From Fibrobacter sp. (GTDB lineage Bacteria > Fibrobacterota > Fibrobacteria > Fibrobacterales > Fibrobacteraceae), in the NCBI GenBank assembly GCA_017520105.1, contig JAFWRL010000109.1, positions 1 to 7,668 of the forward strand: a DNA stretch of 7,668 bases, given 5' to 3'. This document shows positions 508-7,668 of this stretch, one piece after another (within the stretch, counting starts at the first letter, position 1; the number at the start of each line of letters is the position of its first letter). The position numbers and the translations under genes are program-made. The notes below the pieces were generated by a model. It did not search any database and had not been told where the DNA came from. It worked only from the letters and a program-made list of their open reading frames with translations.

Positions 508-546
508 TGTTTCAAAAAAATGCTGGAAACCTTTAGTTTTGAAACA
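508..546. promoter_or_regulatory. 10-bp inverted repeat, candidate enhancer for the sigma-54 promoter
   Basis: TGTTTCAAAA (508-517) and TTTTGAAACA (537-546) are perfect inverted copies separated by 19 bases, centred at 527, about 130 bases upstream of the predicted sigma-54 transcription start. A related half (TTTTTTGAAA, 557-566) follows at once. Sigma-54 promoters need an enhancer-binding activator, which usually binds inverted repeats 80-200 bases upstream, so position and symmetry fit. Binding by any protein is inference. Confidence 0.4.
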
Positions 547-574: not shown

Positions 575-583
575 TGGTATAAT
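575..583 (+). promoter_or_regulatory. Extended -10 (sigma-70 type) promoter upstream of clpB
   Basis: TGGTATAAT is a perfect extended -10: the TG dinucleotide at 575-576, one base, then consensus TATAAT at 578-583. No good -35 sits 16-18 bases upstream (only a T run), which extended -10 promoters tolerate. Transcription would begin near 590 and give a leader of almost 90 bases. A hairpin of C plus T6 (587-593) against A6 plus G (599-605) lies at this predicted start. Confidence 0.6.
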
Positions 584-630: not shown

Positions 631-646
631 TGGCACGCTATTTGCA
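631..646 (+). promoter_or_regulatory. Sigma-54 (RpoN) -24/-12 promoter of clpB
   Basis: TGGCACG (631-637), CTAT, TTGCA (642-646) matches the sigma-54 consensus TGGCACG-N4-TTGCW at every defined position. The invariant GG (632-633) and GC (644-645) are separated by exactly 10 bases. With C645 at -12 the start falls at G657, leaving a 21-base leader that holds the ribosome site AGAAGG (666-671) six bases before ATG 678. Fit to the gene start and candidate activator repeats upstream support a working promoter. An AAA+ activator would be required; none is encoded in this window. Confidence 0.75.
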
Positions 647-677: not shown

Positions 678-3245
678 ATGTCCGATTTTACTAATGATGC
701 TGAAAAGGTCTTGGCGAAAGCGCAGAGTTTACGTGATCGTTGTTCGCATTCCTACTTGGGTGCGGCTCATTTGGCCGTTGGCCTTGTCGAAGGCCCTGAT
801 GCGACCTTGAAAAAGCTTTATAAGTCCAAGGGAGTCAAGACGAACGAACTCCGCGGCAAGCTGGAGCCGTTTGTGCAGAAAATTCCGCGTATGGAAGGTG
901 TGAATCCGGATGTGGAACCGGATAGCGACTTAAACCGTATTTTGCGTGCGGCAGTGCAGGCGGCGCGTCAGGTGAGCCGTATGGTGACGCCGGGCGATTT
1001 GCTTGTGGCTTTGATGAAGTTCTCGGGCGACCGTGGACTTTCGAAGGTCTTTGAAGATGCGCTTGGTTCGACCGAAGTGGTGGAAACTTGGCTTTCGGAT
1101 CCGTTTGCGGGTGCCGCGAATGCCGAAGAACAGTCTCCGTTAAAGCTTTATGGTCGTGAACTTGTGGAAATGGCGGCGGACGGAAAGCTCTCGCCGGTGA
1201 TTGGCCGTGAAGAAGAAATCCGCCGTGTGATTTTGATTTTGAGCCGTAAGACGAAGAATAATCCGTGCTTGGTCGGTGAACCGGGCGTGGGTAAGACGGC
1301 TATTGTTGAAGGCCTTGCCGAACGTATTTATCGTGGCGATGTGCCGGATGCGTTGAAGGGCAAGAAGGTTTTTGCGCTTGATTTGTCCGCGTTGATGGCG
1401 GGCGCAAAATACCGTGGCGACTTTGAAGAAAGGCTCAAAGCCGTTATAGATGCGATTGAAGAAGATGGCAACACGCTTATGTTCATCGACGAACTCCACA
1501 ACATTGTGGGGGCGGGCAAGACCGAAGGCTCGATGGATTTGGGCAATATGCTGAAACCGAAGCTTGCTCGTGGCGAACTCCATTGCATTGGCGCAACGAC
1601 GACGCAGGAATACCGCAAGTACATCGAAAAGGATTCCGCTTTGGAACGTCGATTCCAGCCGGTGCAGGTGAACGAGCCGAGCGAAGACGAAGCGATTTCG
1701 ATTTTGCGTGGCATTAAGGATGGCTTTGATGCGCACCACGGCGTGCGTCTGCATGATAACGCGCTTGTGGCGGCTGTGAAACTTTCGAGCCGTTACATCA
1801 GCGACCGCTTCTTACCGGATAAGGCGATTGATTTGATCGACGAGGCCGCAAGCCTTGTGAAGACGCAGATGGACACGGTACCGGAAGCGCTGGATACTTT
1901 GCAGCGTAAGGAACTCCAGATGAAAATCGAGGAGCAGGCGTTGTCGAAGGAAACGGATGCAAATAGCGTAAAGCGCTTGAAAGAACTTCGTGAAGATTTG
2001 GCCGTGACCGATGCGGCGGTCAAGCAGATGCAGGAACGCTGGCAGGATCGCCGTGCCGCATTTGCCGAAGTACAGGACTTGAAGAAATCCTTGAAGGCGG
2101 CAAAGGACGAGATGGAACAGGCGGAAGCCCGTTACGACTTGAACCGCGCTGCTGAACTCAAGTACAACAAGATTGTGAACATTGAGAAGGAATTGGCTCA
2201 AAAGACCGAAGCGCTCCGCAAGAGTGCCGAAGAAGGTGGCTTGAGCGAAGAAGTCACGGAAGAGACGATTGCGCTTGTGGTGAGCCGTTGGACGGGCATT
2301 CCGGTGACAAAACTTTGCGAAGGCGAAAAGGCAAAGTTGTTGCACTTGGACGAACGTTTGCATGCCCGCGTCATTGGCCAGGACGAAGCTGTCGAAGCCG
2401 TGTCCGAAGCTATTCTGCGTAACCGTAGCGGTCTCTCCCGCGAGAATGCGCCGATTGGTAGTTTCCTCTTCTTGGGCCCGACAGGTGTCGGTAAGACGGA
2501 ACTGGCGAAGGCTTTGGCTGTGGAACTTTTCGATAGCGAAAACGCGCTTGTCCGTATCGACATGAGCGAATATATGGAAAAGCATAGCGTAAGCCGTTTG
2601 ATCGGTGCTCCTCCGGGATACGTGGGGTACGAAGAAGGCGGCCAGCTGACCGAAGCTGTGCGTACGCATCCGTACTGCGTGATTCTACTTGATGAAATCG
2701 AGAAGGCGCATCCGGACGTGTTCAATACGCTGTTGCAGGTGCTTGATGACGGTCGTTTGACGGACGGCAAGGGCCGTACGGTGAACTTCAAGAACACCTT
2801 GATTTTGATGACCTCGAACTTGGGTGCCGAGAAGTTCCGCTTGAGTGCGGCTAGCGCCAAGAACGGTGAACCGCCGCAGGTTGCACTTGCGGATGTCGAA
2901 GCCGACTTGCACGCGTTCTTCCGCCCGGAATTCTTAAACCGTTTGGACGAAGTGCTTGTGTTCCAGAGCCTCTCGAAAAAGCAGATTCGCGAAATCGTGA
3001 AACTCAAATTTGCGGATTTGGCGAACCGCGCTGCCCGTCAGGACTTGGTGCTTACGCTTTCGGATGCGGCGCTTGATGCGATTGCGGAAGGCGCTTACCA
3101 GCCGGAATTCGGTGCACGTCCGATTCAGCGGTACATCGAACGCAACATTGAACGTCCGTTGAGCCACGCGATACTTTCGGGCACTGTAAGTGCCGCAAAG
3201 CCCGCCGTGGTGGATTACCAGAACGGAATGTTTGTGGTGAAGTAA
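678..3245 (+). CDS. clpB: ATP-dependent chaperone ClpB (Hsp104-type disaggregase)
   Basis: The 855-residue product acts in the cytoplasm. With DnaK/DnaJ, ClpB hexamers pull polypeptides out of aggregates through a central pore. Domain order is complete: Clp N-domain repeats (about 1-145); first AAA+ ring with Walker A GEPGVGKT (200-207), pore loop KYRG (244-247), Walker B LMFIDE (267-272) and Arg pair ALERRF (near 324-325); a long coiled-coil middle domain (about 395-525); second AAA+ ring with Walker A GPTGVGKT (600-607), pore loop GYVGYEEG (647-654), Walker B VILLDE (668-673), Arg finger in NRLDE (R755) and sensor-2 GARP (812-815). The full middle domain and length near E. coli ClpB (857) separate it from ClpA and ClpC; I see no ClpP-binding loop. 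ATG 678 follows AGAAGG with a 6-base gap. It appears monocistronic, the next gene being convergent. Upstream lie a sigma-54 promoter and an extended -10 promoter; no CIRCE element is present. Confidence 0.97.
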
Positions 3246-3375: not shown

Positions 3376-4074
3376 TTAAAGAGCTGTCATGACGTAGAGA
3401 CCTATTGTCTTTACGTCATTGTTCTTTTCTTGCATGACGCCGACATCAAAGTCAATGCGAATGTGAGTGCCGCCGAACGTCAGTTCGATTTTGGGGATGA
3501 TATCTACCATGAAGTCATCGCGGAAATTTCCGACGCTAGTGGAGGACGTGACTTCAATGAACAGTCGAAAAACTTGTCCGAAAACAATGGTCGGAATCAT
3601 GGATGCCGAAAATTTTACGTATCCGTCTTCGCCAGTTGCTCCATCAAGGAACCCTGCACGGAGTTCATAGTAGTTTGCGAAGCATTTAGAAATGAAATTT
3701 TGTGTTCCGATAGTAAAAACGATGGCACTTGCATTGACGTCGCTCAAGTCCAGATAACCGTCCAATGCGATAAAGGAGCTAGGCTTGTAACGGTAGCGAC
3801 CACCAATGTCTAAGGCTGTGTGTATGTTATCTAATTTGTTGTAGGTATTGACATCGAGTTTTGCACCGACGTCAAATTGCTTGTTCAGTCGCGTCGTAAA
3901 GTTGAGCGGAAACAGAACATCTGAATTGAATGCGGAACGAATCCCAAGACCGACACCGATTTGGGGGGATGGACGGCTTTCGGGACCGAAAGTGTAGCGC
4001 ATGTCCCATAGGTGGTCCAGAGCAAAAGAATTTGTAACCAAAACGGCGAATAGTAGGCAAAGAATGCGTTTCAT
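3376..4074 (-). CDS. Exported protein of unknown function, probable outer-membrane beta-barrel
   Basis: The 232-residue product begins MKRILCLLFAVLVTNSFA, a classic signal peptide: a positive start, a hydrophobic core and likely cleavage after A18 (S-F-A before L19). The mature part has no further long hydrophobic helix. It shows alternating polar and hydrophobic strands separated by short turns, for example near residues 37-45, 65-75, 87-96, 113-122, 152-165, 195-211 and 222-231, which is how small outer-membrane barrels look. I do not recognise a named family. The frame is open upstream to another ATG at 4165-4167, but that start would overlap hisC and bury the signal peptide, so ATG at 4072-4074 is chosen. 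No clear Shine-Dalgarno precedes it. The gene converges on clpB and diverges from hisC, with only 65 bases between this start and that of hisC. Confidence 0.75.
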   Translation of the reverse strand: MKRILCLLFAVLVTNSFALDHLWDMRYTFGPESRPSPQIGVGLGIRSAFNSDVLFPLNFTTRLNKQFDVGAKLDVNTYNKLDNIHTALDIGGRYRYKPSSFIALDGYLDLSDVNASAIVFTIGTQNFISKCFANYYELRAGFLDGATGEDGYVKFSASMIPTIVFGQVFRLFIEVTSSTSVGNFRDDFMVDIIPKIELTFGGTHIRIDFDVGVMQEKNNDVKTIGLYVMTAL

Positions 4075-4115: not shown

Positions 4116-4129
4116 TACATGCGTAAAAT

Positions 4130-4134
4130 GGAGG
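4130..4134 (+). promoter_or_regulatory. Ribosome binding site that decides the hisC start
   Basis: GGAGG at 4130-4134 lies five bases before GTG 4140, an ideal arrangement. The in-frame ATGs at 4119 and 4128 have no purine-rich site upstream, and the second overlaps this GGAGG. Confidence 0.7.
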
Positions 4135-4139
4135 TATTT

Positions 4140-5225
4140 GTGGTCGAACCGCGTCCAGAACTTTCAAAACTTTCCGATTACGTTCCTGGCAAGTCCATCG
4201 ACGAGATTCGTGAACGTTATGGTCTTAAGAATGTTGTAAAGCTTGCGTCTAACGAAAACCCGTTGGGTGCTTCCCCGAAGGCGGTGGAAGCGTTCCACGA
4301 GATTGCAAATTCGTTGCACTTGTACCCGCGCGGCGATGCCCCGAAGCTCATAGACTCGATTGCCCAGATGTATGGTGTGCAGACGAACCAAATTGTAATC
4401 GGCAACGGTTCCGATGAAATTATCGACATGGTGGGTAAGGCATTTATCCGTCAAGGCGACAACTGCGTGGGCATTACGCCGACGTTCTCCGTCTATAAGT
4501 TTACGACGCTTTCGAATGGTGCCGATTTTATTGGCGTTGGTGAAGGCGAAGAAAAGGCTAGCCTTGATAAGCTCGCTGCTGCCGTCAATGACAAGACTCG
4601 CGTGGCTTTTATTTGCAACCCGAACAACCCGACCGGTCACTATTACACCGAAGCGGAAATTCGCAGCTTCCTTGCGAAAGTGCCGTCGAACGTTCTTGTG
4701 TTCTTGGACGAAGCTTACGCTGAATTTGCAACGGCTGCCGATTATCCGAAGATGGCCCCACTGCTTTCGGAATACCCGAACTTGTTCCTCAACCGCACTT
4801 TCAGTAAGATTTACGGTTTGGCTGGGCTCCGCGTGGGTTATGCGATGGCAAGTGTTGAAGTCGTCCGTGCGATGTGGAAAATCAAGCCGCCGTTTGACGT
4901 GAACCAGGCTGCTCAGGTGGCTGCTGTGGCTGCTCTTGCCGATACCGCACACGTTGAAGCGACTCGCAAGAACAATGCTGTGGGTTTTGAATACTTGAAC
5001 CGTGAACTTGGTGCGCTTGGCTTCAAGGTGCTCCCGACGCAGGCGAATTTTATCTGCGTGCGCATCGGTGAACGTGCCAAGGAACTTGTCGCTTTCTTGG
5101 AACAGAACGGCATGATTGTCCATGGCCTCACGAGCTTTGGTATGCCGGAACACATCCGCATCACGGTGGGCAAACCCGAAGAAAACGAATTGCTTGTTTC
5201 GCTTGTCAAGAAGTGGGTCGGCTAG
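4140..5225 (+). CDS. hisC: Histidinol-phosphate aminotransferase HisC
   Basis: A pyridoxal-phosphate enzyme of fold type I that transfers an amino group from glutamate to imidazole-acetol phosphate, giving histidinol phosphate in cytoplasmic histidine synthesis. Read from GTG 4140 it has 361 residues, normal for HisC, and starts with the family pattern RPEL...L..YVPGK. Motifs in order: KLASNENPLG (near 34-43), GNGSDE (88-93), CNPNNPTG (159-166), FLDEAYAEF with the cofactor-binding Asp190 and Tyr193, TFSK with the Schiff-base Lys223, GLRVGYA with phosphate-binding Arg231, and Arg340 in HIRIT, the usual carboxylate-binding residue. GTG 4140 is preferred because of GGAGG five bases upstream. ATG 4119 would add seven residues but lacks a ribosome site. 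The gene heads a two-gene operon with the phosphatase gene at 5235. Some HisC relatives act on aromatic amino acids or cobyric acid precursors; the neighbour favours histidine. Confidence 0.93.
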   Translation: MVEPRPELSKLSDYVPGKSIDEIRERYGLKNVVKLASNENPLGASPKAVEAFHEIANSLHLYPRGDAPKLIDSIAQMYGVQTNQIVIGNGSDEIIDMVGKAFIRQGDNCVGITPTFSVYKFTTLSNGADFIGVGEGEEKASLDKLAAAVNDKTRVAFICNPNNPTGHYYTEAEIRSFLAKVPSNVLVFLDEAYAEFATAADYPKMAPLLSEYPNLFLNRTFSKIYGLAGLRVGYAMASVEVVRAMWKIKPPFDVNQAAQVAAVAALADTAHVEATRKNNAVGFEYLNRELGALGFKVLPTQANFICVRIGERAKELVAFLEQNGMIVHGLTSFGMPEHIRITVGKPEENELLVSLVKKWVG

Positions 5226-5234: not shown

Positions 5235-6071
5235 ATGGAAAATCGCGAGATTGCAAAGGTCGGTGTCGCTCCCGAGAATCTGGAACTTTTGAAGATTGCT
5301 CTCAAGACGGCGGAACTTGCCGAAGAGAACATTCTCAAGTATTACCAGAACGATGTTGGCGTCGAATGGAAGGCTGACAAGACTCCCGTGACGATTGCGG
5401 ACAAGGGAACGGAAGAACTCGCTCGCAAATTCTGGGCAAAGGAAACTCCCGGCTTTGGCGTCATTGGCGAAGAATTTGGCATTGAAAGCCCGGATGCGGA
5501 ATACCAGTGGGTGATTGACCCGATTGACGGCACCAAGTCGTTTATCCACGGTGTGCCTTTGTTCGGAACGCTCATTGGGCTGTGGCATAAGAACGTTCCG
5601 ATTGCGAGCGTGGTTCATTTGCCCGCGATGAAGAGTGCCGTATGGGCTGTGAATGGCGGTGGCGCCTTCTTGGACGGTCGTGAAGTTCGCACTTCGAAGG
5701 TATCGCAGTTAAGCGATGCTCTTGTGCTTTCGGGAACAGTCAACACGATGGAAGACAAGGGCTTTGGCGAAGGCTTTACGAAGCTCCGCCGCAGCGCCCG
5801 CTTGCATCGCGGCTGGGGTGACTGCTACGGCTATTACCTGGTGGCGGCAGGCCGTGCTGAAATTATGGTGGATCCAGTCGTTTCGCTGTGGGACATTGCT
5901 CCGTTCCCGCTCTTGATGAAAGAAGCGGGTGGCAAGTTCAGCACCATTGATGGCAAGACCGAACTCTTCGATGCAAACGGAAAGCCGACGGCGCCCATTT
6001 ACGAAGGCTTCACAAGCATCGCGACGAACGGGCTGCTGCATGATACTGCGCTTGAGTATTTGAAGAAGTAA
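5235..6071 (+). CDS. hisN: Histidinol-phosphatase, inositol-monophosphatase family (HisN type)
   Basis: A 278-residue, Mg-dependent phosphatase, predicted to hydrolyse L-histidinol phosphate to histidinol, the step after HisC. The family's metal site is complete: TIADKGTEE (53-61), GEEFG with Glu79 (78-82), WVIDPIDGT with Asp95 and Asp98 (92-100), and Trp219-Asp220 near the C-terminus. The stretch KSFIHGVPLFGTLIGL (101-116) after DPIDGT is typical of the HisN branch rather than of general inositol monophosphatase or CysQ. Length fits the family. ATG 5235 is nine bases after hisC, with its ribosome site overlapping the hisC stop, so the two are cotranscribed and likely coupled. The partnership with hisC is the strongest argument for histidinol phosphate as substrate; activity on inositol phosphate or another sugar phosphate cannot be excluded from sequence alone. 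Confidence 0.85.
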   Translation: MENREIAKVGVAPENLELLKIALKTAELAEENILKYYQNDVGVEWKADKTPVTIADKGTEELARKFWAKETPGFGVIGEEFGIESPDAEYQWVIDPIDGTKSFIHGVPLFGTLIGLWHKNVPIASVVHLPAMKSAVWAVNGGGAFLDGREVRTSKVSQLSDALVLSGTVNTMEDKGFGEGFTKLRRSARLHRGWGDCYGYYLVAAGRAEIMVDPVVSLWDIAPFPLLMKEAGGKFSTIDGKTELFDANGKPTAPIYEGFTSIATNGLLHDTALEYLKK

Positions 6072-6110
6072 AATTTATTTCATGCAAAATAGTTTTTTTT
6101 GATAAATTGT

Positions 6111-6755
6111 ATGAAAAGAATTCTTATAGGCTTGCTAGTTCTTGTTCTTTGCTGTAATGGCATGGGCGAGGAACCGGTTAAAGAAAGTTATTTGCCTTAT
6201 GGGATGACTTTTCATGCATCTTATGTGTATCCGACTACTGCGGAAATATCTCTGTTTGATATTCGGTCAGGAACCGAAGAGGATGCTTTCCATGTAGGCA
6301 ATTTATTTGATGTTTATTTTGGATTTGATCCGCTTCATATAAGCATTGATCCTGATAAAGTTTCTGATGAGGCTCTGTTTTCTTTGGGTGGAGCCTTAGT
6401 GGTGGGCTTGATTGTAGGGGCGTTTGATGGATATTCTCCTTCAAATAAGGCTTTAGAAGTGTTAGGTTATATACTTTTAGGTGTCCCTGCCTATGCTTGG
6501 TGCGGAAACCTTTATATACCTTTAGTTCCTAAATCATGGTTAGGATTAACAGATCAAAGTCATATTATCACTCATGTTATTTATGAACGAGGATTTCATT
6601 TGCGCAGTTTTACATACGTGAATGATATTGGTTTGCGGTGGTCCCCAATGCGAACAGTTTATTTTGAAGCCGGCGTTCGTTTGGAGAAAAATTTTGCAGA
6701 TGATTTTAAGTGCAAATTTTTCTTCCAGATAGGGGGCGCTGGAACAAGTAAATAG
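6111..6755 (+). CDS. Exported or membrane protein of unknown function
   Basis: The 214-residue product starts MKRILIGLLVLVLCCNGMGEE, an export signal. The Cys pair at 14-15 resembles a lipoprotein site, but the residue before either Cys (Leu or Cys) is not the usual Gly, Ala or Ser, so lipid attachment is doubtful. Two later hydrophobic stretches (about 89-105, rich in Gly and Val, and 115-138) could be membrane helices. The C-terminal third (about 160-210) alternates like beta strands. I do not recognise the family. ATG 6111 is chosen over an in-frame TTG at 6099, as it begins the signal directly; neither has a Shine-Dalgarno. Codon choice is clearly AT-richer than in clpB, hisC and hisN (many TTT, TTA, ATA and GAT codons), suggesting low expression or a different history. 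It lies 39 bases after hisN on the same strand and could be read through from that operon; no terminator separates them. Confidence 0.7.
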   Translation: MKRILIGLLVLVLCCNGMGEEPVKESYLPYGMTFHASYVYPTTAEISLFDIRSGTEEDAFHVGNLFDVYFGFDPLHISIDPDKVSDEALFSLGGALVVGLIVGAFDGYSPSNKALEVLGYILLGVPAYAWCGNLYIPLVPKSWLGLTDQSHIITHVIYERGFHLRSFTYVNDIGLRWSPMRTVYFEAGVRLEKNFADDFKCKFFFQIGGAGTSK

Positions 6756-7029: not shown

Positions 7030-7668
7030 TCACCACATCGTTGTATAGCTCATTGAATCCGGGACGAACGTGAACGTTATCGTCCCTTTTTTTGCGGTGT
7101 TGATGTAGGGAATGTTTAGCGAATCGAGGCGGTTCAGCACTTGTTTGTGCGGGTGGCGGAAACGGTTTTTGCGACCGCTGGGGATGATGGCGTAAATGGG
7201 GTCGATTGCTGTCACGAACGGTATGCTGCTGGATGTCTTGGAACCGTGGTGCCCGAGTTTTAGCACATCGCTTTTTAGATAAATGTCGGTCTTTAGGATT
7301 TCTTTTTCGCCTGCGACGGTGAGGTCTCCCGTGAGGACGGCAGAATGCCCTAGCCCTTTAAGCCGGACGGTGACACTCCCTTCGTTCGCTTCGACGCAGG
7401 CGTTTTCGATAGGGTGGAGCGTCTTGATTTCAAAGAAGTTCTCTTTCCAAAGAAAGCCTCGGTGGACATGGCGAATAGGAATTTTTCGTTTGTTCGCTTC
7501 GCGGATGAACTTTTGCCAATCGGGCTTGGGCTCTTTCAGGGAACATTCGCTTGTCCATATTTCCTTGATAGGGAACATCTTGATGAGCGAAATCGCTCCG
7601 CCGAAATGATCTTGGTCAGGGTGCGTGATGATTAGAGCCTCTAGCTGACGGACTCCGATGTGGTGCAA
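7030..7668 (-). CDS. ComEC/Rec2-like DNA-uptake protein, C-terminal metallo-beta-lactamase domain (5' truncated)
   Basis: The gene enters from the right edge; 212-213 codons are visible, stopping at TGA 7030-7032. The visible part is a metallo-beta-lactamase-fold domain in the form found at the C-terminus of ComEC/Rec2, the channel that moves single-stranded DNA across the inner membrane in natural transformation. Counting from the window edge: LIITHPDQDHFGG with metal ligands His16, Asp18, Asp20 and His21; NEGSVTVRL (95-103), equivalent to the family NNxSxVLRL; VLTGD with Asp115; LKLGHHGSKTSSS with His140 and His141; and SGRKNRFRHPH (164-174). GVRQLEALIITHPD matches the usual lead-in. Whether the membrane part (ComEC domain) is attached lies outside the window; a stand-alone hydrolase is possible. 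The TTG at the very edge is not taken as a start. Confidence 0.82.
   Translation of the reverse strand: MHHIGVRQLEALIITHPDQDHFGGAISLIKMFPIKEIWTSECSLKEPKPDWQKFIREANKRKIPIRHVHRGFLWKENFFEIKTLHPIENACVEANEGSVTVRLKGLGHSAVLTGDLTVAGEKEILKTDIYLKSDVLKLGHHGSKTSSSIPFVTAIDPIYAIIPSGRKNRFRHPHKQVLNRLDSLNIPYINTAKKGTITFTFVPDSMSYTTMW

Follow-up and report, generated by a model that had tools for sequence, protein, structure and literature searches.

A conserved sigma-54 promoter in front of clpB and a candidate enhancer and activator for the chaperone genes of Fibrobacter and its relatives

The DNA analysed here, referred to as the window, is a stretch of 7,668 nucleotides from a Fibrobacter sp. assembly (GCA_017520105.1, contig JAFWRL010000109.1). 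It carries clpB on the plus strand at 678..3245, whose product has TIGR03346 ClpB as its best NCBIfam match (1138 bits, below the cut-off of 1232), followed by hisC (4119-5225) and a histidinol-phosphatase gene (5235-6071). Two further frames, 3376-4074 on the minus strand and 6099-6755 on the plus strand, gave zero NCBIfam matches, and an open frame on the minus strand at 7030-7668 resembles the C-terminal part of ComEC/Rec2 (126.5 bits against a cut-off of 190). Residues 1-224 of the window's ClpB are 100% identical to those of L001 and L002, from two Fibrobacter metagenome-assembled genomes. All genome-level counts reported below (rpoN, activators, HrcA, RpoH) were obtained from relatives of the window's genome, and these were grouped by ClpB identity.

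Upstream of clpB, positions 631-646 read TGGCACGCTATTTGCA, which fits the pattern TGGCACG-CTAT-TTGCA (TGGCACG-N4-TTGCA) of a plus-strand sigma-54 -24/-12 promoter, with GG at 632-633, ten intervening bases and GC at 644-645, so that the GG-N10-GC spacing is exact. Taking C645 as the -12 position places the predicted transcription start at G657, 21 nucleotides 5' of the clpB ATG at 678, and an AAGAAGG-type ribosome binding site can be read in the leader at about 665-671. The original prediction had proposed a sigma-54 promoter with this spacing and this start, and the sequence agrees. The element is the window's sole zero-mismatch promoter match, but at up to three mismatches the pattern is no commoner than chance (12 seen, 11.84 expected), a figure that favors reading 631-646 as a chance match as well. 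The window by itself is thus little proof, and the proof has to be comparative.

Comparison with other clpB loci speaks strongly. GG-N10-GC stands before clpB in all 35 Fibrobacter loci despite diverged flanks, and the fuller pattern TTGGCAYR-N4-YYGCW lies within 160 bp of the clpB start in 33 of them, against 0.0 per shuffled set; the other two, L015 and L033, miss it by the last base only and keep GG-N10-GC intact. L006 and L019 have in common an insert of roughly 80-100 bp, which contains a short hairpin-like repeat, separates the promoter from the start of clpB and so pushes the site out to about -132 and -152. Among further Fibrobacterota, with ClpB identities from 75% down to 56%, GG-N10-GC occurs 28-88 bp before the clpB start in 20 of 20 loci, a set scored without shuffles in which the deepest six sites are weak and the start of L213 is provisional. 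In a still deeper set (19 loci at about 50% ClpB identity, plus G055) it is found in 18 of 20 loci with at most two mismatches to a 17-base consensus, and is absent before clpB in L395 and L397. Summed over all sets, 73 of 75 loci keep the site, as the original prediction would have it for related strains, and this conservation refutes the chance match, to which we assign a negligible probability.

A second candidate lies at 575..583 on the plus strand, where TGGTATAAT forms a good extended -10 and could mark a rival or additional sigma-70 promoter, with 631-646 then being secondary or silent. It is kept in just one of the 35 Fibrobacter clpB loci, L001, whose sequence is nearly the same as the window's, against 35 of 35 for the sigma-54 element. 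We reject it as the clpB promoter because it is not conserved, and consider its primacy very improbable, although both elements could be used. Judged by comparison of sequences, the element at 631-646 is almost certainly a real and conserved sigma-54 promoter.

The machinery looked for on the strength of the original prediction is present in the relatives. The sigma-54 DNA-binding domain (rpoN) was found in 35 of 35 Fibrobacter genomes, and strong PF00158 matches to sigma-54 activators in all 15 Fibrobacter genomes searched; strong matches alone were counted because every one of the 14 control genomes also gives weak ones. The activators were sorted into families (A, B, C, D, E, F), several of which occur together in each genome. 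A strict promoter pattern gave 384 matches in the 35 genomes (5 to 20 each), whereas the pattern reversed gave 18. Twenty strict sites were followed to the genes downstream of them (11 of 12 sites in G007, all 8 in G001 and a single one in G022). These genes, identified by reading the proteins or, for a sigma-70-family gene, by profile search, include dnaK, grpE, htpG, clpB, the genes for a PII protein, glutamate synthase and glutamine synthetase, two porin-like genes, two genes for small exported proteins and two copies of the sigma-70-family gene; some strict sites (e.g. L154, L155, L158) are apparently unconnected to a gene start. At L152 (G007) and L165 (G022) a sigma-54 site stands between a family-A activator gene and the gene, downstream, for a small exported protein. 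The sigma-70-family gene, in which Pfam recognizes regions 2-4, has a sigma-54 site directly before it in four genomes (L151, G007:C6:322678; L159, G001:C44:22725; G022:C88:64496; G032:C142:588), and this arrangement suggests that sigma-54 feeds into a further sigma factor in a cascade.

Textbooks usually assign heat-shock control to a sigma-70-type sigma factor or to a repressor, and HrcA-CIRCE is the repressor system controlling groE and dnaK operons. Other chaperone genes were examined for the sigma-54 site in 30 genomes, with gene starts anchored by tblastn, and groES, grpE, dnaK and htpG all carry it, upstream of groES in 26 of 29 loci, grpE in 18 of 20, dnaK in 17 of 25 and htpG in 17 of 29. 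The groES count includes a doubtful site at -293 (L231, in the HrcA- and CIRCE-bearing G126), and the counts leave out 7 of 27 grpE loci, whose N-terminus did not align, and 1 of 30 htpG loci. Four of the eight dnaK loci without a site have dnaK just behind grpE (G120, G132, G103, G122), and the other four belong to the HrcA-bearing genomes G061, G126, G117 and G090; for htpG the site is absent in 12 of 29 loci. One genome, G022, from horse faeces, holds two dnaK and two grpE copies (G022:C22, G022:C38), each with a sigma-54 site, reflecting either duplication or a mixed assembly. On this comparison clpB is probably transcribed by sigma-54 RNA polymerase from 631-646, with a start near 657, as a member of a heat-shock regulon comprising groESL, grpE, dnaK, htpG and clpB.

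The familiar regulators were sought in the same lineages. The HrcA gene was found in 0 of 15 Fibrobacter genomes and in 7 of 14 control genomes. Across the phylum it is present in 29 of 120 genomes, a search in which 71 of the negatives are not individually named and group counts were made by hand on the ClpB table: 0 of 66 genomes that we label Fibrobacteraceae-like (a term coined for this analysis), 9 of 10 in the next group at 56-59% ClpB identity, where G115 is the genome without it, and 20 of the remaining 44. G057 was placed in the 56-59% group with an identity of 62%, which covers residues 146-853 only. CIRCE, at two mismatches or fewer, occurs at groES in 4 of 29 loci, all four in HrcA-bearing genomes; the other 25 have at least seven mismatches to it and all carry the sigma-54 site, their HrcA status being covered for all but G011. 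RpoH above the TIGR02392 cut-off was found in 0 of 7 Fibrobacter genomes and 2 of 14 controls, a threshold below which diverged heat-shock sigma factors could score. As none of the three was found in the Fibrobacter genomes searched, we reject control of the Fibrobacter chaperones by HrcA, CIRCE or RpoH. That HrcA and CIRCE are found in deeper lineages only suggests that sigma-54 replaced HrcA. The clpB sigma-54 site, by comparison, lies on both sides of the HrcA divide, and for this reason clpB looks like the founding member of the sigma-54 set, the other chaperone genes appearing, in the order we infer, as later recruits.

Beside the chaperone promoters we find a palindrome, TGTTTCA-N3-TGAAACA. 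A dyad search upstream of these promoters, in which the clpB set comprised 33 of the 35 Fibrobacter loci, returned GTTTCA-N3-TGAAAC as its top result, present in 16 of 109 regions, the highest count in five shuffles being 2. With up to two mismatches the longer form lies upstream of groES in 22 of 25 cases, dnaK in 17 of 17 and grpE in 11 of 17, and in htpG it sits in the leader (16 of 17 with at most one mismatch, scored without a shuffle control). The exact core has 41 copies in 23 of the 30 genomes (18 for the reversed control), and 39 of these stand ahead of a chaperone match, at a distance of 21-378 bp (htpG 16, groES 15, grpE 4, dnaK 2 and clpB 2). At clpB the palindrome is degenerate in most Fibrobacter, with 3-6 mismatches to the N3 form; in other Fibrobacterota that form is found with up to three mismatches in 31 of 40 clpB regions, and exactly in G056. 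In the window, plus-strand half-sites of a candidate enhancer stand at 508..514 (TGTTTCA) and 540..546 (TGAAACA); they equal the half-sites of the chaperone palindrome and are paired at 25 bp, as they are in 5 of 33 clpB regions of Fibrobacter, and TGTTTC half-sites alone are uninformative at clpB in most species. In G090 (G090:C40:149473) an exact core lies 161 bp before the groES match, in company with HrcA and CIRCE and without a sigma-54 site there; this arrangement perhaps represents an early step of the regulator change.

The palindrome might instead be the operator of some repressor that succeeded HrcA, with an unrelated activator serving sigma-54. The htpG copy, at +51 to +116 from the -24 element and hence downstream of the promoter, is where a repressor could act, and some grpE and dnaK copies come as close as 24-36 bp upstream of the -24 element. 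Against an operator stands the variable distance of the palindrome from the promoter, 24 to about 230 bp upstream with downstream copies besides, which is why we favor an enhancer; nor was it found at eleven other, non-chaperone sigma-54 promoters, where 3-6 mismatches separate the sequence from the palindrome. We regard the operator as improbable. With the palindrome as enhancer, clpB and the main chaperone genes would be switched on by activator-dependent sigma-54 transcription from a common enhancer type.

The best candidate for the activator of the chaperone promoters is family B, here bEBP-B, which could be read in all 15 Fibrobacter genomes, G003 included. Its AAA+ sigma-54 interaction domain (PF00158, E 1.9e-69) bears the loop GSYTGS, GSFTGA or GAFTGA, so that the GAFTGA motif is altered in most, and a Fis-type DNA-binding domain is present (HTH_8, E 9.5e-16). 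It aligns with Aquifex NtrC1 (PDB 1ny5, 4l4u) over the receiver and AAA+ domains at E 1e-78 and 1e-81. Unlike in NtrC1, the phospho-acceptor Asp of the receiver's LLDL motif is replaced in 11 of 11 sequences, by Glu, His, Cys or Ser, and an invariant Asp occurs ten residues on, opposite a Glu of NtrC1; we read this domain as a probable pseudo-receiver. Among the 27 loci of relatives that contain dnaJ with sequence beyond it, eight have the bEBP-B gene after dnaJ in the chaperone operon (G120, G132, G061, G117, G113, G090, G126, G037), directly in seven and with one small frame between in G120. The other 19 lack it next to dnaJ; they include G007 (the one Fibrobacter), four genomes from the group at 72-75% and thirteen deep genomes. 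At four Fibrobacter loci the gene comes after a CheY-like receiver gene (receiver verified in two) and an upstream frame that is incomplete; a histidine-kinase ATPase domain is encoded upstream of it in L106 and L342. Two exact palindrome cores, the remainder of the 41, fall inside the bEBP-B coding sequence (G007, G027). Autoregulation through them was considered and rejected: we count them as chance, given that they lie on the codons of the receiver's F-I-M-K-P stretch and that 11 of the 14 genes compared are without them.

The sigma-54 promoters may be real and yet be driven by another activator (A, C, D, E or F) to which the palindrome belongs. Several families coexist in each genome, and F is a relative of C2 (58% identity over their common part), so that one could substitute for the other. 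Yet G027 (strong matches B, D and F) and G029 (A, B, two C, E, one unassigned and one outside all families), both with sigma-54 chaperone sites, have family B as the sole family in common, in assemblies that may be incomplete, and only family B is seen in the dnaK operon. We consider another activator unlikely and bEBP-B the probable ligand of the palindrome. The signal is likely to be heat or misfolding, and it may reach bEBP-B by way of the kinase and the CheY-like protein encoded nearby, or through contact with chaperones. The original prediction had coupled protein disaggregation to a specific signal through an enhancer-binding protein; the comparison supports the tie between clpB and such a protein, but the reading proved too narrow, since clpB is one member of a set, with groESL, grpE, dnaK and htpG, that has a common palindrome, and general protein stress is a more likely signal than one specific to disaggregation.

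Sigma-54 chaperone promoters have precedents, which limits the novelty of these results. Flavobacterium psychrophilum resembles the present case in having sigma-54-type (SM4) promoters with mapped starts at groES-groEL, dnaK, grpE-dnaJ, htpG, clpB and lon (PMC9723704); the available part of that paper mentions three PF00158 proteins, assigns neither activator nor enhancer and does not mention HrcA. In predicted sigma-54 regulons of 16 phyla, GroEL, GroES, GrpE, DnaJ, DnaK and IbpA are enriched in Planctomycetota and Bacteroidota, and the words Fibrobacter and clpB are absent from the survey's main text (PMC12316311). In Myxococcus xanthus the NtrC-like HsfA, phosphorylated by HsfB, directly regulates the heat-shock gene lonD (PMC9109919), a precedent for such a protein at a heat-shock gene; HsfA, as the available part of that source describes it, differs in being phosphorylated and in having lonD as its named target, whereas in Fibrobacter a chaperone set is involved and the bEBP-B receiver is without the Asp. 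The portions available of papers on Xylella (PMC3224663), Desulfovibrio (PMC4641369) and Rhodopirellula (PMC2754498) do not show sigma-54 control of chaperones, and a literature search by title found no work on sigma-54 or heat-shock control in Fibrobacter.

The Fibrobacter palindrome is missing (5-6 mismatches) from four upstream regions of Bacteroidales taken from a plasmid collection (three dnaK, one groES). Of the dnaK regions, one has a canonical GG-N10-GC and two, read by eye, have GG-N10-GT; groES, likewise by eye, has TTGGCACACTATTCGCA. Plasmid searches with GroEL and ClpB yielded one usable Bacteroidales record, from GroEL. L467 and L469 (dnaK) and L470 (groES) are chromosome-like pieces filed as plasmids, in which sigma-54-like elements and, instead of the Fibrobacter palindrome, TGTCA-type repeats can be made out by eye. 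The HrcA-CIRCE system likewise controls groE and dnaK and is present in deeper Fibrobacterota, but it acts by repression and was not found in the Fibrobacter genomes searched. Sigma-54 chaperone promoters as such were already known, and what the present comparison would add is a candidate enhancer, a candidate activator and the apparent replacement of HrcA.

Comparison of genomes is what speaks for a conserved promoter, for the set of chaperone genes that have it, for the specificity of the palindrome, for the distribution of HrcA and CIRCE and for the position of bEBP-B within the dnaK operon in relatives. We lean, with modest confidence, towards a heat-shock response in Fibrobacterota run by one dedicated pseudo-receiver enhancer-binding protein, which ancestrally would have resided in an HrcA-controlled groE-dnaK operon while driving clpB and which, once the lineage leading to Fibrobacter had lost HrcA, would have taken over the whole chaperone set together with sigma-54 and TGTTTCA-N3-TGAAACA. 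If true, this would be a regulator replacement with a traceable path, and a positive, ATP-driven heat-shock switch resembling a bacterial counterpart of heat-shock factor and its element. The activator gene, the enhancer and the replacement of HrcA are each testable in culturable rumen Fibrobacter, and, if the proposal is right, the chaperone output of a major cellulose degrader depends on an ATP-driven activator.
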